Positions 40,698 to 51,633 of a stretch of DNA of 64,000 bases are shown piece by piece; position 1 is the first letter of the stretch; every line of letters begins with the position of its first letter. The position numbers were made by a program, and so were the translations under genes. The DNA is from Paenibacillus sp. V4I7 (lineage in GTDB: Bacteria > Bacillota > Bacilli > Paenibacillales > NBRC-103111): the NCBI RefSeq assembly GCF_030817275.1, contig NZ_JAUSZD010000002.1:4340001-4404000 (forward strand). The letters are read 5' to 3'. Below the pieces are notes generated by a model, which saw only the letters and a list, made by a program, of their open reading frames with translations, searched no databases and was not told the origin of the DNA.

Positions 40698-41837
40698 TTA
40701 ATAGAGATGATACTGCTGTTTCATCTGTGCGAATTCCCGACTTTCGTCCCGAAATTGCTCCAACAACACCGAAACATCTAATGGATCTTCACGGTACACC
40801 TTATCCCCGCACAATAAATCAATAAAAGGCCTGGATCCCTCTTTAAAAGGTGGCAGGAAAGAAAATTGCTCATAGTTACGCTTAATGGTATACATCAGTG
40901 TGATAGCTGTCTCCAAAGGACGAATCGATCGGGTATCCAGTATATGAAGCTGAACGCCGCTGCATGACTCTCCCTGAAATTTGGAAAAGGTCGGTTTAAA
41001 ATAGACCGGACGAAAAATGACCCCAGGCAAATTCTTTCTGTTCATCTCATCCGCCAGTTGTTGAGCGTCGATGAACGGAGCTCCTACAATTTCAAAAGGA
41101 ACTGTGGTTCCTCTTCCTTCAGACATGTTGGTGCCTTCAAATATACAAGTGCCGGGATACAGTAATGCCGTGTCAAACCGAGGAATCCCCAAAGAGGGCA
41201 TCACCCAGTGTCGACCGGTATCAGTGAACTGCATCTTCCGCTCCCACCCCTGGGCACGTATCACATGCAGATCACAATGCCAGTTCATCTGATCGTTAGC
41301 CATGGTGGCCACCTCACCGACAGTCAGACCGTAACGCACACAAAGTGGATAATTACCAACAAAAGATTGATAATCCTGCTTTAAAATGTTACCTTCTACC
41401 GTCACCCCATCCAGCGGGTTGATCCGGTCCAAAATGACAAATGGCTTGCCTGCTTTCGCACAATCTTCCAGCGCATATAGCATCGTATAAATAAAAGTGT
41501 AGTATCGTGTACCCACGTCCTGAATATCATAGACGACCATATCTACCTCATCCAGCATTTCCTGACTCATGCGCTTGGAATCCTTACGGTACAAGCTATA
41601 TACCGGCACCTGTGTGATCGGGTCCAGATACGTTTCTACCAAGGCACCTGCTGCTTGATCTCCACGCACACCGTGTTCCGGTGAAAACAGAGCTGTCAGA
41701 TTGAAATTCTCATGCAAAATTTGAATCGTGGATACGAAGTCATTGTTTAAGCCGGTAGGTGCTGTAATGAGTCCCAAACGTTTCCCTTTAAATAGATGAG
41801 TGTACTGCCCAATGCAATCGATACCGTTTCTGATCAT
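40698..41837 (-). CDS. namZ: NamZ-like exo-beta-N-acetylmuramidase (DUF1343), apparently cytoplasmic
   Basis: 379 residues from ATG 41837, chosen for GGGAGG six bases upstream. It shows DUF1343/YbbC family marks: GLITAPTGLN, FSPEHGVRG near residue 60 (the segment with the proposed catalytic Glu), YDIQDVGTRYYT, LDRINPL, and EGTNMSEGRGTT. Bacillus subtilis NamZ removes terminal MurNAc from peptidoglycan fragments and is secreted. This protein has no signal peptide from the chosen start, nor in the 21 residues that would extend it to 41900. It is therefore expected in the cytoplasm, acting on imported muropeptides or MurNAc-GlcNAc. It is the last gene of the importer operon below MurQ. Confidence 0.85.
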   Translation of the reverse strand: MIRNGIDCIGQYTHLFKGKRLGLITAPTGLNNDFVSTIQILHENFNLTALFSPEHGVRGDQAAGALVETYLDPITQVPVYSLYRKDSKRMSQEMLDEVDMVVYDIQDVGTRYYTFIYTMLYALEDCAKAGKPFVILDRINPLDGVTVEGNILKQDYQSFVGNYPLCVRYGLTVGEVATMANDQMNWHCDLHVIRAQGWERKMQFTDTGRHWVMPSLGIPRFDTALLYPGTCIFEGTNMSEGRGTTVPFEIVGAPFIDAQQLADEMNRKNLPGVIFRPVYFKPTFSKFQGESCSGVQLHILDTRSIRPLETAITLMYTIKRNYEQFSFLPPFKEGSRPFIDLLCGDKVYREDPLDVSVLLEQFRDESREFAQMKQQYHLY

Positions 41838-42014
41838 AGCTGCCTCCCAAATTTTATTTGCCGAGTGAGTTATGTAAATCTCCCTTGGGCAATGTAGCAA
41901 ACTAGGCCAAAATTGAAGGTTACCTTCGGTTTACCCACCCAAAAGCAAAGTTGAGAAAACCTCTAACGAGGCCATTTATGAATGAGCAGCCGCGTATAGA
42001 GGTTGATTTTATTC

Positions 42015-42722
42015 TTATAATTCAGTTTTGATAACACGCATATTTTCTTCTGGAATCATGAAGGTTTGTGCATATTCTTTTCTGGCTTCAAGGCCTCGGA
42101 CTCTCATCAAATGTTTGTAGTATTCCAAATACTTGAACGACTTGCTGCCGATTACGAACCAATGCGTGGAAACAGCCTTCACCCATAGATCGAATGCTTC
42201 TTGATCGTAGTCGACATACACATACGGACGATAGTCGACGGCGTCCTCCCAGTTCTCGGCATAATACAACCTCTGTGCAAAATGTGCTGGAAGCTCCCGC
42301 TCAAACGTCGGCAAGGCGGCAAAATAGCGGGCATCATTGACGATGCGGTGCGTTGTCATATGATCCTTGTGCATGCTGTTCTTCCAATGCGTAATAATGA
42401 CGTTGGGACGAACTTGACGAATAATATCGCATACGCGAAAACGCATTTCTTGGTTATCCTGCAGCTCGCCGTCAGGAATATCGTCGAATACGAACGCTTC
42501 CCCGCCCAGCATCTCGGCAAAGGTTTTCGCCTCATTCACTTTCTGCACACGATATTCAGCCATATCTTGTCCTGCCGGGACGCCGCGTTCGCCTGCTGTC
42601 AACGCCAGGGTTGCAATGCGGTCCCCCTTCAAAGAGTGACTTGCAAGTACCCCCCCTGCCGTTAATTCGGCGTCACCAACATGGCCACCGATGGCTAGAA
42701 TCGTTAACTTTTGCTCGCTCAT
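42015..42722 (-). CDS. PIG-L family deacetylase-like protein with altered active site
   Basis: 235 residues. PIG-L/LmbE enzymes are zinc N-deacetylases of GlcNAc-type sugars with motif AHPDDxE. Here the segment reads GGHVGDAE: H14, D17 and E19 are kept but the usual catalytic-base Asp is Gly16. The downstream HKDHMTTH with metal His is intact. It abuts the GNAT gene (no gap) in an amino-sugar operon, so an N-acyl amino sugar is the natural candidate substrate. The substitution may mean a different reaction. Confidence 0.85.
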   Translation of the reverse strand: MSEQKLTILAIGGHVGDAELTAGGVLASHSLKGDRIATLALTAGERGVPAGQDMAEYRVQKVNEAKTFAEMLGGEAFVFDDIPDGELQDNQEMRFRVCDIIRQVRPNVIITHWKNSMHKDHMTTHRIVNDARYFAALPTFERELPAHFAQRLYYAENWEDAVDYRPYVYVDYDQEAFDLWVKAVSTHWFVIGSKSFKYLEYYKHLMRVRGLEARKEYAQTFMIPEENMRVIKTEL

Positions 42723-43691
42723 TCACACAAACTCCCTTCTCATGACAGAAAATTGTTTGACGGTTGTAAAGCCTGCCTTCTCATAGATGCGGATAGCCGG
42801 ATTCGAACTGCCCGTATAAAGCGACATGTATTCGGTCCCGATTGAACGAAAAGCTTCACACAGCTTAAAGAAAAGGATGCTGCCCAGACCGTGTCCCTCA
42901 TGCTCGGGAATGACACCGATTCCGGCGAAATAGCCCCGGCCGTTGTCTTGACGAATGACCGGACCTGCAAATCCGATTACCTTGCCTTTATATGCAGCAA
43001 TCACCACTGGCACACCCTCTGCCGTGCTTTGCCCGATTTCCCTCTGCCATAAAAGATTATTAAATCCATTCAGCATTTCATCCACGCCGTCATGCTTTTT
43101 CGGGTCGAACAATTCCACCGTGTAGCCATCGACTGCCGCCTTGCTTTCCTTGGCTCTGATATCCCCTGGTATGGTGAAACTGTCCAGCTTCAAATACATG
43201 GCGCACTCTTTAGCGCGTTCCACATACCCTGCCTGCAGCAAAAACGTATACAATTTACTTTCAATCGGCACGCCAGGCGCATTGTTATGCTCATGCTTCG
43301 GTGTCCCCGGTATATACCACGGCAATAACATCGGATTAAAAAATAAGACATCACCTTGTTTTTTTCCCAACTGCTGAAAGCGGCGCTCCAAAGCATCTAG
43401 CATGCCTTGATAATTCTCATCTGTTTGGAAATCATCGGCTAAAACAATGCAGGTGATGTATCCCGCCACTTCCCCAAGCGGCAGATCATCCCCTGTGCAG
43501 CCGCAGGCAAAGCCTTTGACTTCATTTTGTTCCAGTAACACAAAAGCATTTTGACTATCAAAATAAGTGTTGGCCGTGAAGATAAGCTCAAAGGTTTGTT
43601 CGGTAAGCTCCTTGTAGCCTTCTTTCACGGCTTCTTCATTCCATAAGTCAATAACCGCCTGACGATATTGTTGATCCCATGACACAATCAT
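42723..43691 (-). CDS. Two-domain GNAT acetyltransferase
   Basis: 322 residues made of two GNAT folds: an N-terminal one (about 1-150) with a degenerate site and a C-terminal one with the acetyl-CoA motif IPEHEGHGLGSILF near residue 265. Acetyl-CoA-dependent N-acetylation is the expected activity. Directly upstream of the PIG-L gene, the pair could remove and add acyl groups on an amino sugar or on a peptide amine. The substrate is unknown. Confidence 0.85.
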   Translation of the reverse strand: MIVSWDQQYRQAVIDLWNEEAVKEGYKELTEQTFELIFTANTYFDSQNAFVLLEQNEVKGFACGCTGDDLPLGEVAGYITCIVLADDFQTDENYQGMLDALERRFQQLGKKQGDVLFFNPMLLPWYIPGTPKHEHNNAPGVPIESKLYTFLLQAGYVERAKECAMYLKLDSFTIPGDIRAKESKAAVDGYTVELFDPKKHDGVDEMLNGFNNLLWQREIGQSTAEGVPVVIAAYKGKVIGFAGPVIRQDNGRGYFAGIGVIPEHEGHGLGSILFFKLCEAFRSIGTEYMSLYTGSSNPAIRIYEKAGFTTVKQFSVMRREFV

Positions 43692-43725
43692 GCTGAAGTA
43701 ATACCTCCCCCATGCGCGGTTAGTA

Positions 43726-44586
43726 CTAGCCCTTCACCGCTCCAACCGTTACACCTTCTAAGAAGTACTTTTGCAAGCTGAAGAAAAGAATAAACATCGG
43801 CAGTGCAGAGATCGTAGCACCCGCCATCATCGGCGCGATAAACGTCGTATTGGCGAAGCGGAAGTTTTTCAATCCCACTTGAATCGTCTGCATATCCATC
43901 GTATTGGTGACAAGAAGCGGCCAGAAGAATGTGTTCCAGCTGTCCATAAACGTTAGAATCGCCATGACGGCAAGCACGGTTTTGGACAAAGGCAGAATGA
44001 TTCTCCAATAGATCGTGAACTGACTGCACCCTTCGATCTTGGCGCTTTCCATAATCTCATTCGGGATGCTGCTCATAAACTGTTTAGCCAGAAAAATATT
44101 ATATACAGTAACAATACCCGGCATAATTAACGCGCTGTACGTATTTTGCAGCTCGAACACGTTAACAACCAGAATATACAAAGGTACTTGCGTAACTTGG
44201 TAAGGAATCATCATGGAGACAAGCAGTACGGCAAACAGCACGCCTCTCCCTTTAAAACGAAGTTTAGAAAATGCATAACCAGCCATGCTCGCAAAAATAA
44301 CATTGGACACCATCACGGTGGTCGCGACGATCAGTGAGTTCAAAATCCAACGATACGAATACTCACTGTAATCAAAGAAAAATTTAAAGGAAGCGAATGT
44401 AAATTTGCTAGGTAAAATGGAATAGCTCACCGCTCCGGCCTCAACCGGATCAGCAAAGGATGAAATGACCATGAAATAAATCGGAAATATCGTCGCCAAA
44501 GCAAAAAGTAGAAGGAATATAAAAATGATTGAATTTCGAATGGTTTTTACTCTAGGTTTTCCTGCATGATTGCTGTATAAAGCCAT
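43726..44586 (-). CDS. CUT1 sugar ABC transporter permease, MalG-like
   Basis: 286 residues, six helices, EAA loop MESAKIEGCSQFTIYW near residue 190 and C-terminus KYFLEGVTVGAVKG. Second permease of the amino-sugar importer; 16 bases follow the partner gene. No ATPase is encoded in the operon. Confidence 0.92.
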   Translation of the reverse strand: MALYSNHAGKPRVKTIRNSIIFIFLLLFALATIFPIYFMVISSFADPVEAGAVSYSILPSKFTFASFKFFFDYSEYSYRWILNSLIVATTVMVSNVIFASMAGYAFSKLRFKGRGVLFAVLLVSMMIPYQVTQVPLYILVVNVFELQNTYSALIMPGIVTVYNIFLAKQFMSSIPNEIMESAKIEGCSQFTIYWRIILPLSKTVLAVMAILTFMDSWNTFFWPLLVTNTMDMQTIQVGLKNFRFANTTFIAPMMAGATISALPMFILFFSLQKYFLEGVTVGAVKG

Positions 44587-44602
44587 TTTTTATACCCCTC
44601 TC

Positions 44603-45508
44603 TTAATACTCGACGTCTTTTCCTGCATATTTGAACTGTATAACCGAAATTCCCGCGATAATAACAGCTAGAATCAGCGATTGCGCCGCAGCTTTACCGA
44701 ATTCAAAATAAGTAAATGCATTATTGAAAATCAGTAGACCAACCATCGTAGTGGCATTGTTCGGACCGCCGCCAGTCATCAAGTAAGCGTTCTGGAACAC
44801 TTGGAAAGAACCGATAACACCCGTCACCAAAAGAAATAACGTAGCTGGTTTCAAAGAAGGAACAACGATGTGCCACAGCTTTTGAAAAAAGTTCGCTCCG
44901 TCCATTTCAGCTGCCTCGTAATACGTATCATCAATGCCGAGTAGACCGGCCAGGTAGATGATAATGCTTGTGCCATGACTGGACAACCAGGACATCAGAA
45001 CCAATGAAAACATCGCCGTTTTGCTTGAGCCGAGCCAGTTCTGATTGGTAATGCCAAAGAAATGAATGAACTGATTTAAAATTCCGCCTTCCATTGGATC
45101 GAAGATCCAAAGCCATACGACGGATAAAGCAACACCTGAAGCAACAACAGGTAAGTAATAGACTCCTTTGAAAAAGCCCTGCGTTTTTTTCCTAAGCGGC
45201 AGAATCATAATCGCAATCACCATGGACAATAACAAGTTGACAGGTACTGTCAAAAGCGTATAGACGACGGTATTGCGCATTGCTTGCCAAAATAAAGCAT
45301 CCTTCACCGTAGAGACATAATTGTCGAACCCAACATACGTGGAACCAAGAGGTTTATATTCTTGGAGACTAATGATAAATGCACTTACGACCGGATACGC
45401 CGTGAACATCGCAAAAACAACTAAAGCGACGGCAATGAATGCATATCCTGGGGCACCTTCTCCTTTGATTCCTTTTCTTTTTATCGGTTTAGCGATATTC
45501 GTTGCCAT
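44603..45508 (-). CDS. CUT1 sugar ABC transporter permease, MalF-like
   Basis: 301 residues, six helices, EAA loop YEAAEMDGANFFQKLWH near residue 205. It precedes the MalG-like subunit and follows the binding protein by 100 bases. From its place between MurQ and NamZ, its cargo is probably MurNAc, MurNAc-GlcNAc or a muropeptide. Confidence 0.92.
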   Translation of the reverse strand: MATNIAKPIKRKGIKGEGAPGYAFIAVALVVFAMFTAYPVVSAFIISLQEYKPLGSTYVGFDNYVSTVKDALFWQAMRNTVVYTLLTVPVNLLLSMVIAIMILPLRKKTQGFFKGVYYLPVVASGVALSVVWLWIFDPMEGGILNQFIHFFGITNQNWLGSSKTAMFSLVLMSWLSSHGTSIIIYLAGLLGIDDTYYEAAEMDGANFFQKLWHIVVPSLKPATLFLLVTGVIGSFQVFQNAYLMTGGGPNNATTMVGLLIFNNAFTYFEFGKAAAQSLILAVIIAGISVIQFKYAGKDVEY

Positions 45509-45608
45509 ACTGTCTAACCCCCAAACCCCGTTTCAAAAAACTCGGATTAAAATAGTTCGGATAGCCGTGTAACAAGCATCACGACTATCCGAGGTTTACA
45601 ACTTATGA

Positions 45609-47051
45609 TTAATCTTTCACAACGCCGTCTGCGCCAAATGCGGCAATCGCAGCGGTTTTCACAGCTTCATACATCGCTTCAGGAGTAATTTCACCTGCGA
45701 TCAAACCTTGGAACTTAGGCACGATAACTTCAGTTTCCAATTTAATCGCTTTAGCACCCAGTTCTGTCGGGATATCCGAACGAGCCGGTGTTGCATTTTT
45801 CAGCATGTAGTCAACAGCAGCGATGTTCTCAGGGCTTCTGTCAATTTTCATGCTTTCAGCCGCTTTTTTACCGCTTTGCGTAATGTGAGCAGAGAACAGA
45901 TCACTGTTTGTTGCTGCAGCATTTTTACCGCTAGCTAAGAAGTAAGCAGCTTTTACGACATTCGCTTTGTGCTCAGCCGTAGGTTCCTTTTTACCGCGGA
46001 ACGTCATGTAACCGTCAACGACAGTAGCGAATGATGGTTTTGCTCCTTGGAAAGTAGGGGCCGGCAATACCACATAATCAACCGGGATGGAATCTTTTAC
46101 AGCACTTGCATCAGCTGCTTTAAGCTTTGCGTTATTGGTTTTAGCGGAATTCTCAAATACGGCTAGACCTTTACCTGTGATCATCGTTTGGCCTGTCAGG
46201 AACATGTTCCAACGCTTACCAGCATCTACAGAGCTAAGCTCTTTCGGCATGGAGCCGTCATCGATCAACGCACGAAGATCTTTCAGAAGACCTAGGTAAT
46301 TTTTGCTAGTGTACGCATATTTCAAATCTTTATTAAACGCATGAGGCATGCCCGCATTTTTAGCCATGATACCCAAGTAGTCAACGGCTGCAACGCCTTT
46401 AACAGCGAACACGAAACCATAGCGTGTTTTGCCGTTTTCAGTTACGAGGCCTTTTTTGATTGCTTGACGGAATTCATCATATGTCCAGCCGCTCGTTTGT
46501 ACTTTCTTCCAATCGATGCCGGCCTTTTCCAGGTACGCTTTGTTGCCGCCAAGTGCATGAACTTCCATGTACGCCGGGAAGCCGTAAAGTCCTTTGCCGT
46601 TCTTCATGTATTCAAGCGGAGCTTTCTCATAATCGTTAATCATCTCAGGAGTAGCTGAATCCGTGATGTCCATGAGCAAACCTTGCTGCAGATACTTAGG
46701 GATGCCATCAGAGCCTCCGAAAGCAATATCTGGCGGGCTGCCCGCATTCACTTGCGTATCCAATTTCTGCTTCATATCTTCCCAGCTTGCCGGTTCGATT
46801 TTCAAAGTCAGATTCGGATACAATGCCGTAAAGTCTTTGGACATTTGTTCGAAAGTCTTTTGGTAGTTTGGTGAAACTGGCGGCAGCAAAGCTGTAATGG
46901 TGTCTTTAGCTGTTGAGGCGCCGGCAGTAGCCGCTGGAGCAGGCGTGCCTGCTGGTGTAGTTGTTGCTTTCGTGCCGGAAGTACCACCACAAGCTGTTAA
47001 AGCCATGGTTAAAGCTACAACAGATGCTAATACGGGCATTTTTCTTTTCAT
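45609..47051 (-). CDS. Sugar ABC transporter substrate-binding lipoprotein, MalE/UgpB-like
   Basis: 480 residues. Signal peptide with lipobox LTAC near residue 20, an Ala/Pro/Thr-rich linker of about 25 residues, and a type 1 solute-binding domain. It is the receptor of the importer and is co-directional with MurQ upstream (68 bases). Expected ligand: a MurNAc-containing sugar released during wall turnover. A transporter of this ABC type would replace the MurP PTS permease of the B. subtilis pathway. Confidence 0.92.
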   Translation of the reverse strand: MKRKMPVLASVVALTMALTACGGTSGTKATTTPAGTPAPAATAGASTAKDTITALLPPVSPNYQKTFEQMSKDFTALYPNLTLKIEPASWEDMKQKLDTQVNAGSPPDIAFGGSDGIPKYLQQGLLMDITDSATPEMINDYEKAPLEYMKNGKGLYGFPAYMEVHALGGNKAYLEKAGIDWKKVQTSGWTYDEFRQAIKKGLVTENGKTRYGFVFAVKGVAAVDYLGIMAKNAGMPHAFNKDLKYAYTSKNYLGLLKDLRALIDDGSMPKELSSVDAGKRWNMFLTGQTMITGKGLAVFENSAKTNNAKLKAADASAVKDSIPVDYVVLPAPTFQGAKPSFATVVDGYMTFRGKKEPTAEHKANVVKAAYFLASGKNAAATNSDLFSAHITQSGKKAAESMKIDRSPENIAAVDYMLKNATPARSDIPTELGAKAIKLETEVIVPKFQGLIAGEITPEAMYEAVKTAAIAAFGADGVVKD

Positions 47052-47119
47052 GAAAATAGACCTCCATTATAGGGATCTTTGAGCGTTGCTCAAAGTCTCT
47101 CCTTTTTATATTAAGTATC

Positions 47120-48040
47120 TCAAACAACTTTGCTAAAAGTACGTATGGCTGTTTTCAAACGGCCGTCACATTGATTCAATGCTCGTTCTGCCTCCGCTGC
47201 ATCCAAACCGGTTTTTATCATCATAATCGCTAATTTGCAATTCATGGAAGCGCTTTCCAGATGGGCAATAGCGCTCTTTTCATCTACCCCTGTTGCTGCT
47301 CTAATGATACGAACAGAACGATCATACAATTTGATATTGCTTGCCTTCATGTCTACCATAAGGTTGTTATACGTCTTTCCAAGCTTCACCATCGTACAGG
47401 TCGTCAGCATGTTAAGAACCAGCTTCTGTGCTGTCCCCGCTTTCAATCGGGTAGATCCCATTATCGCTTCCGGCCCAACCACTGGCGCAATACATACATC
47501 ACAGACAGGCTCTAGTTTCGAATTTTTGTTATTCACTACGCCGATCGTTGCTGCACCAATTTCCTTTGCTCTTTTCAAACTGGCAATGACGAATTGTGCG
47601 CTTCCACTGGCCGTAATTCCGATAACGGCATCCTTATCTGTCACACCGCACCGTTCTATGAGTGCGATCCCCTCCTCCGCGTTGTCCTCAAAACCTTCAA
47701 CTGCAATTCTTAGCGCCCCATCGCCGCCGGCGATATGACCTTGCACCAGCATGGGGTCAATACCAAAAGTAGGAGGACATTCAGAAGCGTCGAGCACACC
47801 GAGTCTGCCAGAAGATCCAGCCCCTACGTAGAACATTCTGCCACCGTTTTTAAGAACATGATGTAAAATATCAACCGCTTTCATAATTTGCGGTATTTCT
47901 GCTCCCACTGCAGCGGGAACTTCAGCATCCTGCTCATTCATTAAACGCAGCATTTGTTCCGTTGTACATTCATCCATAATCAGTGTTTTCTCGTTAATCT
48001 CTTCCGTAGTCAACCTCGACAGATACTCATCCATAGCCAT
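47120..48040 (-). CDS. murQ: N-acetylmuramic acid 6-phosphate etherase
   Basis: Cleaves the D-lactyl ether of MurNAc-6-phosphate to give GlcNAc-6-phosphate and D-lactate in the cytoplasm. 306 residues, normal length. The SIS-domain signature GAGSSGRLGVLDASECPPTFG near residues 75-95, with the catalytic Glu of DASE, is intact, as is ITASGSAQFV. It is the first gene of the importer operon. Its substrate needs phosphorylation by a kinase because no PTS permease is present; the BadF-type kinase at 50623 is the obvious candidate. Confidence 0.96.
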   Translation of the reverse strand: MAMDEYLSRLTTEEINEKTLIMDECTTEQMLRLMNEQDAEVPAAVGAEIPQIMKAVDILHHVLKNGGRMFYVGAGSSGRLGVLDASECPPTFGIDPMLVQGHIAGGDGALRIAVEGFEDNAEEGIALIERCGVTDKDAVIGITASGSAQFVIASLKRAKEIGAATIGVVNNKNSKLEPVCDVCIAPVVGPEAIMGSTRLKAGTAQKLVLNMLTTCTMVKLGKTYNNLMVDMKASNIKLYDRSVRIIRAATGVDEKSAIAHLESASMNCKLAIMMIKTGLDAAEAERALNQCDGRLKTAIRTFSKVV

Positions 48041-48083
48041 CCTCCTATCCTGTTTGTTTCAATTTCTAATTTCATACTAGCGA

Positions 48084-48118
48084 AAAATTTCATGATGGTC
48101 AATAGTTTTTGAAATTTT
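48084..48118. promoter_or_regulatory. Inverted repeat upstream of murQ, possible MurR operator
   Basis: AAAATTTCA (48084-48092) and TGAAATTTT (48110-48118) are perfect inverted 9-mers, 17 bases apart, in the short promoter region of murQ. The sequence is AT-rich, so chance is a real alternative. Confidence 0.4.
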
Positions 48119-48162
48119 ATTTCTTTTCACAATAAACTTTTGATTTTTTATTTTATTTTACA

Positions 48163-48212
48163 ACAAAAAAAGACAACGACCTTTTATCTGGCTAAGGCGT
48201 TGTCTTTGACTT
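48163..48212. terminator. Bidirectional-looking terminator after murR
   Basis: AAAGACAACG (48169-48178) and CGTTGTCTTT (48198-48207) form a perfect 10-bp stem with T runs on both sides. On the minus strand it ends murR and insulates murQ. Confidence 0.85.
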
Positions 48213-48213
48213 T

Positions 48214-49080
48214 TTATTTGCGATGTTTACTGCTGGCGATAATATCGTGCGTTTTAGCTAAATATTTCTTCACTTTCTTGTATTCCGCACTGGCTACACC
48301 AGCAAAAAGAATATCAATTACCGTCAGCATGGCAATTCGCGATCCCATGGCACCGCTTCTGATAGTTACCTCTGGTGTAGAGATGCTCAAGACAATATTC
48401 GCCTTATCTGCTAACTCGCTTTTATTATATTTGGTAATGGCAATAATGCATGCGCCATTCTTTTTGGCTATTTCGAGTGAATCGAGAATTTCCGTCGTAC
48501 TGCCGGAATTCGATATAAAGATGGCCACATCACTTTTGTCCAGCAGTGTAGCTGCCGTGAGTTGGCTGTGCCCGTCCGTGTAGGTATGGCACATCTTGTT
48601 AATCCGTGAAAATTTCTGCTCCGCATCGATACCGACCAGACCGGAAGCACCGATTCCGAAAAATGCAATACGGTTGCTTTCACGCAGGACTTTTACAGCA
48701 CGGGCTATTTCATTTTTATCAATAACACTGAGCGTGTCCTCAATAGATTTACTATTATTGCGAGAAATATTAGAGATAATGACGGATAGATCATCCCCTG
48801 GTTGTATATCGGTGTACTGGTTCTTCTCATCATCATCCATAGATCCAATTGAAGCTGAGATGCTTACAATAAAGTTCCGGTAACCTTTATACCCCATCGT
48901 TTTACAGAAACGAAGAACGGATGCGTCACTGGTCTTCGTCAGCCCGGCAAGGTTCTTAATCGAAAGATGCGGGATTTCCTCTAAGTTCTCCAAAATGTAC
49001 TCGGCTACCAACTTCTCAACAGGAGTTAGGCTGTCTTTCATATCACGAATCTTTATTAAAATATTATCATTAATTGACAT
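48214..49080 (-). CDS. murR: MurR/RpiR-family transcriptional regulator
   Basis: 288 residues: N-terminal RpiR helix-turn-helix (LVAEYILENLEEIPHLSIKN ... SDASVLRFCKTMGYKGYRNF) and C-terminal SIS domain (RIAFFGIGASGLVGIDAEQK, ISNSGSTTEI) that binds a phosphosugar, in MurR proteins MurNAc-6-phosphate. It lies between murQ and the divergent GH4-kinase pair and so can control both transcripts. Confidence 0.88.
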   Translation of the reverse strand: MSINDNILIKIRDMKDSLTPVEKLVAEYILENLEEIPHLSIKNLAGLTKTSDASVLRFCKTMGYKGYRNFIVSISASIGSMDDDEKNQYTDIQPGDDLSVIISNISRNNSKSIEDTLSVIDKNEIARAVKVLRESNRIAFFGIGASGLVGIDAEQKFSRINKMCHTYTDGHSQLTAATLLDKSDVAIFISNSGSTTEILDSLEIAKKNGACIIAITKYNKSELADKANIVLSISTPEVTIRSGAMGSRIAMLTVIDILFAGVASAEYKKVKKYLAKTHDIIASSKHRK

Positions 49081-49253
49081 ATATATTCCCTGTTCACCCT
49101 ATTTTCTCTGAGCTAAAATTTTAATCTCATCATACGTATATTTGCTCAAAAAAACAAGATTAATATCTAAAATAATATACAATTTTGAGTAGTAAGGTAA
49201 GAAATTTATTTTCAATATAAATCTCTAAAAGCAAAATTAAATTCCAATTTATA

Positions 49254-49283
49254 TTGCAGCGTTTCTGAAGGCGATGCTATAAT
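49254..49283 (+). promoter_or_regulatory. Predicted promoter of the GH4-kinase operon
   Basis: TTGCAG (49254-49259), an 18-base spacer and TATAAT (49278-49283) with an extended TGC before the -10 make a good SigA promoter, about 40 bases before the GH4 start. The remainder of the divergent gap 49081-49253 is AT-rich with no other clear feature. Confidence 0.65.
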
Positions 49284-49324
49284 AGCAGCGAGATTGAGCT
49301 GAATTAGGAAGGGTGAATACATGG

Positions 49325-50620
49325 ATGACTAAAAAATTGAAAATAGCGATTATTGGATCAGGAAGCACCTACACCCCAGAATTGATTGAAGGAATGATTA
49401 AGCGAAAAGACGTATTACCAATAGATGAACTAGTACTCATGGATATTGATGCAAGAAAGCTCGAAATTGTAGGCAAACTCTGTGAACGCATGATAGAGGC
49501 AGCGAGTATTCCTTGTCGAGTTATCTTAACCGAAAACTTGGATGAAGCGCTGCGGGATGCGGATTTTGTGTTATCACAAATTCGTGTGGGTAAGCTGCCT
49601 GCCCGCGTACTCGACGAGACCATTCCTCTCAAATACGATTTAATCGGGCAAGAAACCTGCGGAATCGGTGGATTTTTCAAAGCCATGCGCACCATTCCCG
49701 TTATGCTTCATATTGCCAACCGTATGCAAGAACTGTGTCCGGATGCTTGGCTCATCAATTTCTCCAATCCAGCTGGCATCATTACAGAAGCTATGCTTAA
49801 TCATTCCAAGGTGAAAATGCTAGGTCTGTGTAATGTCCCTTTCAACATGTTCAAGAGCATTCGTGAAACCTTGCAATTAGACCATGCTAACTTCACCTAT
49901 GTTGGACTTAACCATTTAAGCTGGATTACATCTATTGAACAAGATGGTAAGGATTATGTGAAAACGGCACTTGATATGGGACTTAACAGTGAAGCGATGA
50001 AGAATATTCCTTCAAGCGGATTCAGTAAAGAGGTCGTTCAGATGGTGGGAGCCATACCTTCTTCTTATTTGGAATATTATTACTTCAAAGAGAAGAAGCT
50101 AAAATTGCTGAAAGAAAGCGAATTAACACGAGGCGAGAAATGTATACAGATCGAAGAGGAGCTGCTAAACATCTACTTGGATTCCGAGCTGCATTCAAAG
50201 CCGGAACTGCTTTCTACTCGCGGCGGTGCCAATTATTCGGAAGTGGCCATCAGTTTAGTCGATGCCATCTATAACGACAAACAAGAGGTACACGTTGTCA
50301 ACCTTCTTAACAACGGAGCATTAGATTTCATGGAAGACTCCGATGCGGTTGAAGTTTGTGCTGTTATTGGTAAAAATGGCGCCACACCGATCAAAGTGAA
50401 AGATTTCAATAATCAACATATCATTGATTATATGCGTATGGTCAAAGCCTATGAGCGTGAAACCGTGGCAGCTGCAGTGAACGGCAGCGAAGATGCCGCC
50501 ATGCGTGCCCTTTTAATGAATCCATTGGTCGGTGACTACGATGCCGCACATCACTGCTTCAATGAGTTGAAGGAAGCCCATAGCGACTACCTCCCGCAGT
50601 TTTTCGCTAAAGAGAAGTAG
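49325..50620 (+). CDS. GH4 family NAD-dependent 6-phospho-beta-glucosidase-like enzyme
   Basis: 431 residues from ATG 49325; a GTG at 49313 is also possible but overlaps the AGGAAGG ribosome binding site. The Rossmann NAD site IIGSGSTYTPELI opens the protein. The GQETCGIGGFFKAMRTIP block, the metal Cys in LGLCNVPF and the metal His in LNHLSWI are all kept. GH4 enzymes oxidise C3-OH of a 6-phosphosugar with NAD and Mn, then eliminate the aglycone. It forms an operon with the kinase two bases downstream and is divergent from murR, so the natural substrate may be a phosphorylated GlcNAc-containing disaccharide. Confidence 0.9.
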   Translation: MTKKLKIAIIGSGSTYTPELIEGMIKRKDVLPIDELVLMDIDARKLEIVGKLCERMIEAASIPCRVILTENLDEALRDADFVLSQIRVGKLPARVLDETIPLKYDLIGQETCGIGGFFKAMRTIPVMLHIANRMQELCPDAWLINFSNPAGIITEAMLNHSKVKMLGLCNVPFNMFKSIRETLQLDHANFTYVGLNHLSWITSIEQDGKDYVKTALDMGLNSEAMKNIPSSGFSKEVVQMVGAIPSSYLEYYYFKEKKLKLLKESELTRGEKCIQIEEELLNIYLDSELHSKPELLSTRGGANYSEVAISLVDAIYNDKQEVHVVNLLNNGALDFMEDSDAVEVCAVIGKNGATPIKVKDFNNQHIIDYMRMVKAYERETVAAAVNGSEDAAMRALLMNPLVGDYDAAHHCFNELKEAHSDYLPQFFAKEK

Positions 50621-50622
50621 TC

Positions 50623-51633
50623 ATGATTGATAAAAACTACATTATCGGGGTCGACGGCGGAAATAGTAAAACGGACTACTTTCTATTTGATATCCAAGGG
50701 AACTTTATAGACCATATTCACACAGGTACATGCAGTCACGAGCAGTTCCCCGACGCATACTTGAGCTCATTCAGAATCATGAATGAAAATATTCAGCATT
50801 TGCTGACGCGTAATCAGTTAACCATGGATCATATTGCAGCCGGTGCCTTCGGATTAGCTGGTGCGGACATTCCATCCCAGAAGGAAAATTTATGCCACGT
50901 CATTGAGCGTATCGGCTTTACACACTATGCCATGGACAACGACTCATTCCTGGGTGTTAAAGCTGGCAGTGAAAAGGGCTTCGGCATTTGCTCCATTAAT
51001 GGCTCGGGCTCCTCTACTGGCGGTATTTCTCCAAGTGGAAAGCGCCTTCAAGTAGGCGGTGTTGGCAGCGAGCTATCTGGTGATGAAGCTGGGGGGTTCT
51101 TTCTAGCCAGAAAAGTACTTCGGGCGGTATATGACTTTTACTACCGTATGGGGCCGGAAACCGGGATGACTGAACCCGTCATAAAGCTGCTGCAAATACC
51201 CGGTAAAGAACTGTTCATTGAATACGCCTTGAACGGCATTCAGAAGCGAACAAGTCCCACCACCAAGCTGGTGCAAATCCTGTTCTCCGCGGCAGATAAC
51301 GGGGATTCCGTAGCTATGAATATTCTTGATAATACGGCCAAACAACTGGCCAACTCCACGGTCGGCTGTATGCACAATCTGGATTTTGACCATGAAGTCG
51401 ATATCATTCTGGCAGGCTCCGTTTGGGTCAAAGCTGAAAGTCCTCTGCTGCTCCAAAACTTCAAAAATCATATTGCAAACTTGACCAATCACAGCTGCCA
51501 TTACATCCTTCTAAAAGTCCCACCTGCAACTGGCGCAGTCCTATGGGCACTGGAACTAGCCTATGGTCATCCAGTGAATTTAGATACTCGTCTGAAAGTG
51601 ATTGAGGCGGTAGAACAACTCGAACGTCAATGA
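50623..51633 (+). CDS. BadF/BadG-type N-acetyl-amino-sugar kinase, MurK-like
   Basis: 336 residues of the ASKHA fold. Phosphate loop VDGGNSKTDYFLFD at residues 10-24, second phosphate region NGSGSSTGG near 130, GGVGSELSGDEAGG near 148, and adenosine motif IILAGSVW near 268. Relatives include GlcNAc kinases and the MurNAc/GlcNAc kinase MurK of Clostridium. Placed after GH4 and beside murR/murQ, it probably phosphorylates imported MurNAc or GlcNAc at C6, supplying the phosphate a PTS would otherwise add. Confidence 0.88.
   Translation: MIDKNYIIGVDGGNSKTDYFLFDIQGNFIDHIHTGTCSHEQFPDAYLSSFRIMNENIQHLLTRNQLTMDHIAAGAFGLAGADIPSQKENLCHVIERIGFTHYAMDNDSFLGVKAGSEKGFGICSINGSGSSTGGISPSGKRLQVGGVGSELSGDEAGGFFLARKVLRAVYDFYYRMGPETGMTEPVIKLLQIPGKELFIEYALNGIQKRTSPTTKLVQILFSAADNGDSVAMNILDNTAKQLANSTVGCMHNLDFDHEVDIILAGSVWVKAESPLLLQNFKNHIANLTNHSCHYILLKVPPATGAVLWALELAYGHPVNLDTRLKVIEAVEQLERQ

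Follow-up and report, generated by a model that had tools for sequence, protein, structure and literature searches.

The question raised by an island of ten genes in Paenibacillus sp. V4I7 is how sugars containing N-acetylmuramic acid (MurNAc) could be used by way of an ATP-binding cassette (ABC) importer. MurNAc use by Gram-positive bacteria has mostly been described with MurP, a transporter of the phosphotransferase system (PTS). The island lies in a stretch of 64,000 nucleotides (contig NZ_JAUSZD010000002.1, positions 4,340,001 to 4,404,000; hereafter the window), and includes genes for MurQ, a MurR-type regulator, NamZ and a CUT1-type importer, next to a divergent pair coding for a family 4 glycoside hydrolase (GH4) and a BadF-type kinase. 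A preliminary description of the window had proposed that this kinase is MurK-like and makes MurNAc-6-phosphate (MurNAc-6P), so that the island would encode a complete alternative route. Our analysis points elsewhere: we consider it fairly probable, from sequence comparisons, that the island works as a regulated operon for sugars of peptidoglycan, independent of the PTS, in which the GH4-kinase pair acts on disaccharides ending in N-acetylglucosamine (GlcNAc). All ten open reading frames (ORFs) were confirmed at the coordinates and strands listed in Table 1, eight on the minus strand and the GH4-kinase pair divergent on the plus strand, and profile searches with Pfam and NCBIfam confirmed the families to which the preliminary description had assigned them.

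The divergent kinase matches the Pfam family BcrAD_BadFG with 57.5 bits (cut-off 31.5). The catalytic Asp, whose role in BadF/NagK sugar kinases is described in PMC10465942, is kept together with the ATP-binding motifs, as DGGNSKT, MDNDSF and GDEAGG could be aligned. Its best match in the PDB is the MurNAc/GlcNAc kinase of Clostridium acetobutylicum (CaMurK; 8zo3, 1.1e-19), to which it scores 74 bits, versus 190 bits for the operon kinase of the one relative tested. In a tree of 55 rows, from which kinases outside 250-420 amino acids had been dropped, a branch with support 100/99 splits a GH4 side (23 rows) from a MurK side (32 rows, one protein appearing twice). On the GH4 side we found all 15 GH4-adjacent kinases, six window-type rows and two MurQ-adjacent kinases, and on the MurK side the 21 other MurQ- or AnmK-adjacent rows, seven operon kinases, CaMurK and three others. 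At CaMurK position 152, Ser is present in 32/32 rows of the MurK side and Gly in 23/23 rows of the GH4 side, and at position 139 the former have Arg (28/32) and the latter Gln (20/23); the window kinase has Gln for Arg139 and Gly for Ser152. Its nearest paralogue in the genome adjoins another GH4 gene. Tree, motif positions and neighbourhood led us to reject the kinase as a candidate MurK. As judged from these comparisons, its earlier assignment is wrong and the protein belongs to a GH4-associated clade, where it most likely phosphorylates the substrate of its GH4 partner.

The GH4 protein contains both the Glyco_hydro_4 and the Glyco_hydro_4C domain and is closest to 6-phospho-beta-glucosidases. 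We examined the neighbourhoods of 48 GH4 genes at 46 loci, taken from the upper part of a ranking of 131 places, some of which were skipped, and excluding matches below 33% identity or 70% coverage. A PTS EIIC was encoded within 6 kb of 0/14 GH4 genes that adjoin a BadF kinase gene versus 27/34 that do not (Fisher 2.4e-7; like all Fisher values given here, too small because of the kinship of the loci). The value was 4.4e-6 without six loci chosen for MurQ, and 3.9e-3 when counted by family, with families assigned by hand. This exclusivity suggests that the kinase stands in for the PTS, and the plain reading of it is that the 6-phosphate needed by GH4 would be supplied by the adjacent BadF kinase in place of the PTS. 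As a rule for annotation, a BadF kinase encoded immediately next to a GH4 gene is probably the kinase of its substrate, not MurK or NagK.

Enzymes of family GH4 act on 6-phospho-hexopyranosides by oxidation with nicotinamide adenine dinucleotide (NAD), elimination from the 3-keto sugar, addition of water and reduction (PMC10628242). Since this mechanism goes via a 3-keto sugar and MurNAc carries a lactyl ether at C3, the ether would block it, and GH4 should not remove MurNAc as the glycon. The mechanism does allow GlcNAc as the glycon, for example the non-reducing end of GlcNAc-MurNAc or GlcNAc-anhydroMurNAc (GlcNAc-anhMurNAc), and the window GH4 probably cuts GlcNAc-6P-(anh)MurNAc, judging from its family and context. 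GH4 was also found linked to MurQ elsewhere. In 299 sampled genomes of Bacillota, 69 have MurQ and 79 have GH4, and six pairs within 10 kb other than our own were found, in four families, where about 0.66 would be expected if gene positions are uniform and the six pairs independent. The clusters L111, L114 and L121 combine PTS EIIC, a YdjC/ChbG-type deacetylase, MurK, AnmK and MurQ with GH4, which is the only glycosidase matched there by our queries; none of the six loci showed NamZ or NagZ. In Escherichia coli, the phosphorylated disaccharide is first deacetylated by ChbG and only then becomes the substrate of ChbF, the GH4 enzyme (PMC9402603, PMC12791066). A single clade shared by all MurQ-linked GH4s was ruled out by a tree excluding matches below 80% coverage, in which the window-type GH4s form a clade of their own (100/100), apart from the other MurQ-linked GH4s, from a paralogue in this genome (L089) and from 1s6y.

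In order to follow the island across Paenibacillaceae, we searched with a NamZ pattern and found 215 loci of relatives and retained the 80 best, a choice that leans to close relatives; 71 of them have full flanks and were used for the counts per gene. The gene order, for which the preliminary description had proposed such a search, was kept in nearly all 80 loci, and its recurrence argues that the genes are not grouped by chance. Among the 71 loci, murQ was present in 69, the gene of the substrate-binding protein (SBP), both permease genes and the GNAT gene in 68 each, the PIG-L gene in 67 and murR in 65. Both GNAT and PIG-L were absent from three full loci, two of which (L050, L059) also lack murQ and the SBP, so that this says little. 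Genes for a MurK-like kinase (62/71), AnmK (58/71; PF03702 345 bits for that of one relative's operon) and a family 3 glycoside hydrolase (GH3) of the NagZ type (42/71) accompany many of these operons, and all three are absent from the island of the window. Nine full-flank loci lack MurK, AnmK and NagZ, among them L001-L005, the closest relatives of the window. MurP, MupG and YdjC were not seen in the 80 loci, within the stretches examined. The gh4 gene lies next to murR on the opposite strand in all 29 loci having it, which belong to Paenibacillus and Cohnella, and is followed by the kinase gene in 11/11 loci whose flank permits the check; it is absent from 27 of the 50 loci where it would show.

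Two of these loci show individual arrangements. In L003 (P. alginolyticus, 978-2642) no gh4-kinase pair separates a conserved ATPase-like gene from murR, the locus being collinear in all else, and L063 (Cohnella pontilimi, 407-1636) has a window-type kinase right next to murR and a MurK downstream of namZ.

We also checked the rest of the genome (8.54 Mb, two contigs) for a transporter and for the steps absent from the island. None of its four PF02378 EIICs is of the MurP type: two are NagE/PtsG-like and score 31.7 and 31.2 bits against a cut-off of 516 for the MurP model, and the others, one for mannitol and one for fructose, are not listed as matches to that model. Together with the conservation across the family, this favours the ABC-linked, PTS-independent MurNAc catabolism that had been proposed from the island's gene content. 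Two MurQ and two NagA proteins score above cut-off, and a NagZ-AnmK pair is encoded at C2:5938634, outside the island. A second PTS-independent cluster (C2:1594000-1612000; L153, L088) codes for an RpiR-type protein, an SBP, two permeases, a MurK-like kinase and the second MurQ, and is by its gene content a minimal ABC-MurK-MurQ set. Since MurK, NagZ and AnmK lie elsewhere in the genome, the island is not the complete route that it had been taken for. The two types of MurK were told apart by sequence match (E 1e-60), genomic position not being part of the criterion, in 30 genomes of the genus; the operon type was found in 20 and that of the second cluster in nine. The latter is present in 8/10 genomes without operon MurK, this genome included, versus 1/20 with it (Fisher 6.4e-5). 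The MurK missing from the island is probably supplied by the second cluster, to judge from this distribution.

Within the island, MurQ is the best-supported step of the proposed route as far as profiles can tell, passing the cut-off of its NCBIfam equivalog model. NamZ matches NamZ_N with 260 bits and NamZ_C with 172 bits over its full length, and is the only NamZ_N match in the whole genome. The ORF start at 41900 is too early, since the most probable start codon of NamZ is the ATG at 41837; read by eye, it lies behind a clear ribosome-binding site, GGGAGG, and gives a protein of 379 residues. No signal peptide was seen at its N-terminus, MIRNGIDCIGQYTHLFKGKRLG, in a reading by eye made with no signal-peptide program; therefore, NamZ is probably cytoplasmic here, at variance with the secretion that the preliminary description had given for B. 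subtilis. The importer set consists of two permeases and a lipoprotein, whose lipobox was read by eye, and the matches of this SBP to solved relatives are weak (best 5.2e-12) as a guide to its specificity. No ABC ATPase gene was found among the ORFs of the island, and a shared one elsewhere in the genome was not sought; the importer probably relies on a shared ATPase.

Similar loci occur in other Bacillota. Of 75 places listed, 58 MurQ neighbourhoods other than our own were examined; 23 contain a MurP-like PTS and six (L130, L134, L142, L147, L148 and L163) a CUT1 permease pair without MurP. Four of these six (L130, L134, L142 and L148) also carry NamZ, and the set in L148 comprises murR, murQ, SBP, permeases, PIG-L, GNAT, NamZ and NagZ. 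In a tree of MalG/UgpE-type permeases (permG), built from 43 of 108 rows with the Paenibacillaceae copies thinned, the permG of the four NamZ-carrying loci group with that of the window (15 rows, 84/89, a branch not starred in the tree). A label given to permeases within 6.5 kb of murQ or namZ caught unrelated ones, and only the named clade was used. Judging by the permG grouping and the CUT1-MurQ loci, MurNAc loci of the ABC type extend beyond Paenibacillaceae.

The regulator was confirmed as an RpiR-family protein with HTH_6 and SIS domains, and its earlier naming as MurR stands to that extent; its best score against the NCBIfam MurR models listed was 183, below the cut-off of 378. A palindrome, TGAAAT-AAA-ATTTCA, was found with at most two mismatches in the murR-murQ gap of 70/70 loci and upstream of murR in 44/68. 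The pattern was derived from the loci in which it was counted, and the meaningful comparison is with the other sequence of these loci, where 16 matches were found in 1.41 Mb. Upstream of murR, the palindrome is present in 25/29 loci with gh4 versus 19/39 without it (p 0.0019). The RpiR regulator would act at this conserved site.

With respect to the acyl-editing enzymes proposed earlier, the GNAT resembles a glucosamine N-acetyltransferase in fold, and the PIG-L protein lacks the general base of a deacetylase. The PIG-L protein (Pfam 80 bits) keeps the fold and the zinc-ligand pattern of the PIG-L/LmbE family, in which the zinc-binding residues are known, namely H-x-x-D and a later His. Its structure model (predicted local distance difference test, pLDDT, 87) matches BshB (Z 26.6), GalB (25.9) and, slightly lower, diacetylchitobiose deacetylases (25.2); against 2ixd, Z is 26.6 with a root-mean-square deviation (rmsd) of 3.0 over 219 aligned residues. 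In PIG-L/LmbE deacetylases the Asp of H-x-D-D is the general base. This position is Gly (HVGD) in the window protein and in 74/75 operon copies, one being unread, and the motif reads HAGD, HAAD or HSLD in four more copies from mur loci (L134, L148, L037, L115); a partial match in L051 does not cover the motif. By contrast, five PIG-Ls beside GH4 genes (L201, L223, L226, L227, L234) retain HPDD. By their motifs these proteins form two functional classes, one at mur loci without the base Asp and a GH4-adjacent one with HPDD. GalB, a hydratase, also lacks the base Asp (HSAD). Because Gly replaces the general base, deacetylase activity is not to be assumed for the window PIG-L, and its step is probably not a plain deacetylation. 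A ChbG role for this protein ahead of GH4 was considered and is weakened by the same motif, as PIG-Ls beside other GH4s keep HPDD. The model of the GNAT (pLDDT 92) is nearest to 5kf2, the glucosamine N-acetyltransferase of C. acetobutylicum (Z 23.6, rmsd 4.2, 290 aligned, 20% identity), known as GlmA, which has a role in recycling. The corresponding fungal region 4zm6 tied for the fold (Z 22.7), and a profile search also put the clostridial enzyme first (1.4e-11).

Kinases of the BadF type were observed in further arrangements. At L124 (9697) and L132 (9403), MurQ lies between two kinases, one from the MurK side of the tree and one from the GH4 side, and each of the two genomes has a GH4 elsewhere, beside an HPDD PIG-L (L227 and L223, respectively). 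In the V4I7 genome, an ArgH-like lyase (by eye), a BadF kinase and an HPDD-type PIG-L follow each other at C2:2610189 (L087), as do a LacI-like regulator (by eye), a BadF kinase and GH4 at C2:3771318 (L089), where no mur genes were present in the examined stretch.

The gene content, its conservation, the absence of MurP, the kinase clade, the kinase/PTS exclusivity, the PIG-L motif and the operator-like site were observed; every substrate in the scheme that we propose is inferred. The lipoprotein and the two permeases would import unphosphorylated di- or oligosaccharides containing MurNAc. Cytoplasmic NamZ, according to its family and the absent signal peptide, would remove MurNAc from MurNAc-GlcNAc ends, and fragments with GlcNAc at the non-reducing end would go to the divergent pair, whose kinase would phosphorylate the 6-OH of GlcNAc and whose GH4 would cleave the 6-phospho-disaccharide into GlcN(Ac)-6P and (anhydro)MurNAc. 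MurNAc would be converted to MurNAc-6P by the MurK encoded beside the second murQ, and anhydroMurNAc would reach the same MurNAc-6P by the distant AnmK. MurQ would then yield GlcNAc-6P for NagA, and the GNAT probably N-acetylates non-acetylated amino sugars of the cell wall. If this is true, an ABC operon conserved throughout Paenibacillaceae and with counterparts in other Bacillota would mean that spore-formers of the soil import intact disaccharides of the cell wall and cleave them in the cytoplasm. A fuller version holds that GlcNAc-(anh)MurNAc enters by the ABC importer, that the GH4-partner kinase serves in place of the PTS for redox cleavage by GH4, that GH4 was recruited to MurQ loci repeatedly, and that a mur-specific PIG-L lineage without the base carries out a different reaction on muramic sugars; taken as a whole it is tentative, and we rather doubt that all of it holds. 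Such a route for peptidoglycan disaccharides was not found in the literature searched, and the PIG-L lineage without the base is a concrete enzyme with a reaction to be found in a well-defined pathway.

Several observations weigh against the explanation that we favour, and some of them favour others. The idea that the divergent kinase is a MurNAc kinase, making import, kinase and MurQ a complete route within the island, draws on its best PDB match and on its distribution: the window kinase is commoner where operon MurK is missing (6/10 versus 4/20 genomes, p 0.045), and MurK is absent in 7/28 loci with gh4 versus 2/43 without (p 0.024), an enrichment that a role as a replacement of MurK would predict. 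In addition, L063, one of 17 loci with the kinase gene, has no gh4 in the examined stretch, which reaches only 406 bases past the kinase; yet this locus also has a MurK, matching that of L006 at 63%. Operon MurK is likewise present in 21/28 loci with gh4, and the 10 of 30 genomes with the window kinase all have one of the two MurK types, a weak point as 28/30 do. With the kinase placed outside the MurK clade, scoring far lower against CaMurK than an operon kinase and lacking the residues common to the MurK side, we regard this explanation as quite improbable.

The GH4-kinase pair could instead be a passenger with a different substrate, for instance cellobiose, chitobiose or aryl glucosides, and no more than a neighbour of the mur operon. 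Pairs of GH4 and BadF kinase without nearby mur genes do occur, in this genome (L089) and at L202, L206 and L215, the GH4 is nearest to 6-phospho-beta-glucosidases, and gh4 is absent from many loci, cleanly so in P. alginolyticus. Two further points count against the explanation that we favour. In the window itself the operator copies at the gh4 promoter are weak (three mismatches each, versus one for the murQ copy), and the pattern gives eight matches, with 6.1 expected. The window GH4 stands outside the clade of the other MurQ-linked GH4s, whose neighbourhoods thus offer an analogy, not orthology; in three of these loci (L108, L109, L136) a second glycosidase, MupG, is present and YdjC is not. 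Against a passenger speak the invariable position of gh4 beside murR in two genera, the more frequent operator-like site upstream of murR where gh4 is present, and the linkage of other GH4s to MurQ beyond chance, and we give it a minor though real chance. Alternatively, the importer might take chitobiose or free GlcNAc while the mur genes recycle only the cell's own MurNAc. ABC import of diacetylchitobiose has been reported in Paenibacillus and Streptomyces (PMC12791066), and the SBP has no close solved relative; the importer nevertheless stays with MurQ and NamZ in 68/71 loci and is found near both in four other families, and the NamZ and AnmK families act on MurNAc-type sugars, which makes this explanation improbable. 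A further point against the operon for peptidoglycan sugars that we prefer is that Asp287 of GlmA has no Asp counterpart in the GNAT; the alignment ends before Tyr297, the other residue mutated in the GlmA entries.

Several known systems come close to the island. In the cluster of B. subtilis, ybbC is namZ. The MurNAc transporter of Tannerella forsythia is of the SSS type. Like murQ-murR-murP-amiE-nagZ-ybbC of B. subtilis (PMC5061867), the island joins MurQ, a MurR-type regulator and NamZ, and NagZ has its counterpart in many relatives' operons or elsewhere in this genome; unlike that cluster, it has a CUT1 ABC importer and no MurP PTS, its NamZ has no signal peptide, and GNAT, PIG-L and the GH4-kinase pair are added. 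C. acetobutylicum likewise has a MurNAc/GlcNAc kinase, MurK (PMC5790795), and the glucosamine N-acetyltransferase GlmA as salvage enzymes, but the window kinase groups in the tree with the GH4-associated kinases, across the main branch from CaMurK, and the GNAT does not keep Asp287. The likeness to chbBCARFG of E. coli (PMC9402603, PMC12791066) consists in an amino-sugar disaccharide that is phosphorylated and then cleaved by GH4, whereas the island has an ABC importer and a kinase for the PTS, no YdjC seen, a PIG-L without the deacetylase base and a mur context. YejBEF-YepA of Agrobacterium tumefaciens (PMC9790009) also imports cell-wall fragments by an ABC transporter, which is of the peptide type and not CUT1, in a Gram-negative organism with AmpD/NagZ recycling. 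The murT-murK-murQ operon of T. forsythia (PMC10465942) uses MurNAc by an ATP-dependent kinase and MurQ, but with a non-ABC transporter, a different kinase and no GH4 in the named operon. Already known are ABC import of cell-wall fragments in a Gram-negative, MurK in C. acetobutylicum and MurK with MurQ in T. forsythia; no description of a CUT1 ABC route for MurNAc was found among the literature matches listed.

Table 1. Features of the island, in positions of the window
Feature	Position	Strand	Evidence
NamZ-family exo-beta-N-acetylmuramidase, 379 aa	40698..41837	-	NamZ_N PF07075 and NamZ_C PF20732; 4k05 1.8e-86
PIG-L/LmbE-fold zinc protein, H14-V-G16-D17 replaces H-x-D-D	42015..42722	-	Pfam PIG-L, motif alignment, structure model
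Two-domain GNAT N-acetyltransferase	42723..43691	-	Pfam; fold nearest glucosamine N-acetyltransferases, C. acetobutylicum GlmA first
CUT1 ABC permease, MalG/UgpE type	43726..44586	-	BPD_transp_1, Pfam/NCBIfam, permG tree
CUT1 ABC permease, MalF/UgpA type	44603..45508	-	BPD_transp_1, Pfam/NCBIfam
Sugar-binding lipoprotein	45609..47051	-	SBP_bac_1; lipobox LTAC
MurQ, MurNAc-6-phosphate etherase	47120..48040	-	TIGR00274 349.2, cut-off 302
Palindromic operator-like site upstream of murQ, TGAAAT-AAA-ATTTCA, 1 mismatch	48110..48124	.	murR-murQ gap in 70/70 loci
RpiR/MurR-type regulator	48214..49080	-	HTH_6 and SIS
Weak operator-like copy, murR/gh4 divergent promoter, 3 mismatches	49109..49123	.	pattern scan
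Weak operator-like copy, murR/gh4 divergent promoter, 3 mismatches	49200..49214	.	pattern scan
GH4 NAD-dependent 6-phospho-beta-glycosidase family protein, own Paenibacillaceae clade	49313..50620	+	Pfam; 1s6y 9.2e-109; tree
BadF/NagK-type sugar kinase, GH4-associated clade, probable glycoside 6-kinase	50623..51633	+	Pfam, tree, residues, neighbourhoods

Scans for promoters and terminators gave counts near the shuffled mean (22 versus 21.6 and 14 versus 12.2, respectively) and were not used. A 44.7 kb plasmid of Paenibacillus guangzhouensis (NZ_CP045294.1, 3298-4215) carries a MurQ 84% identical to that of the window, which suggests that part of the system may be mobile.

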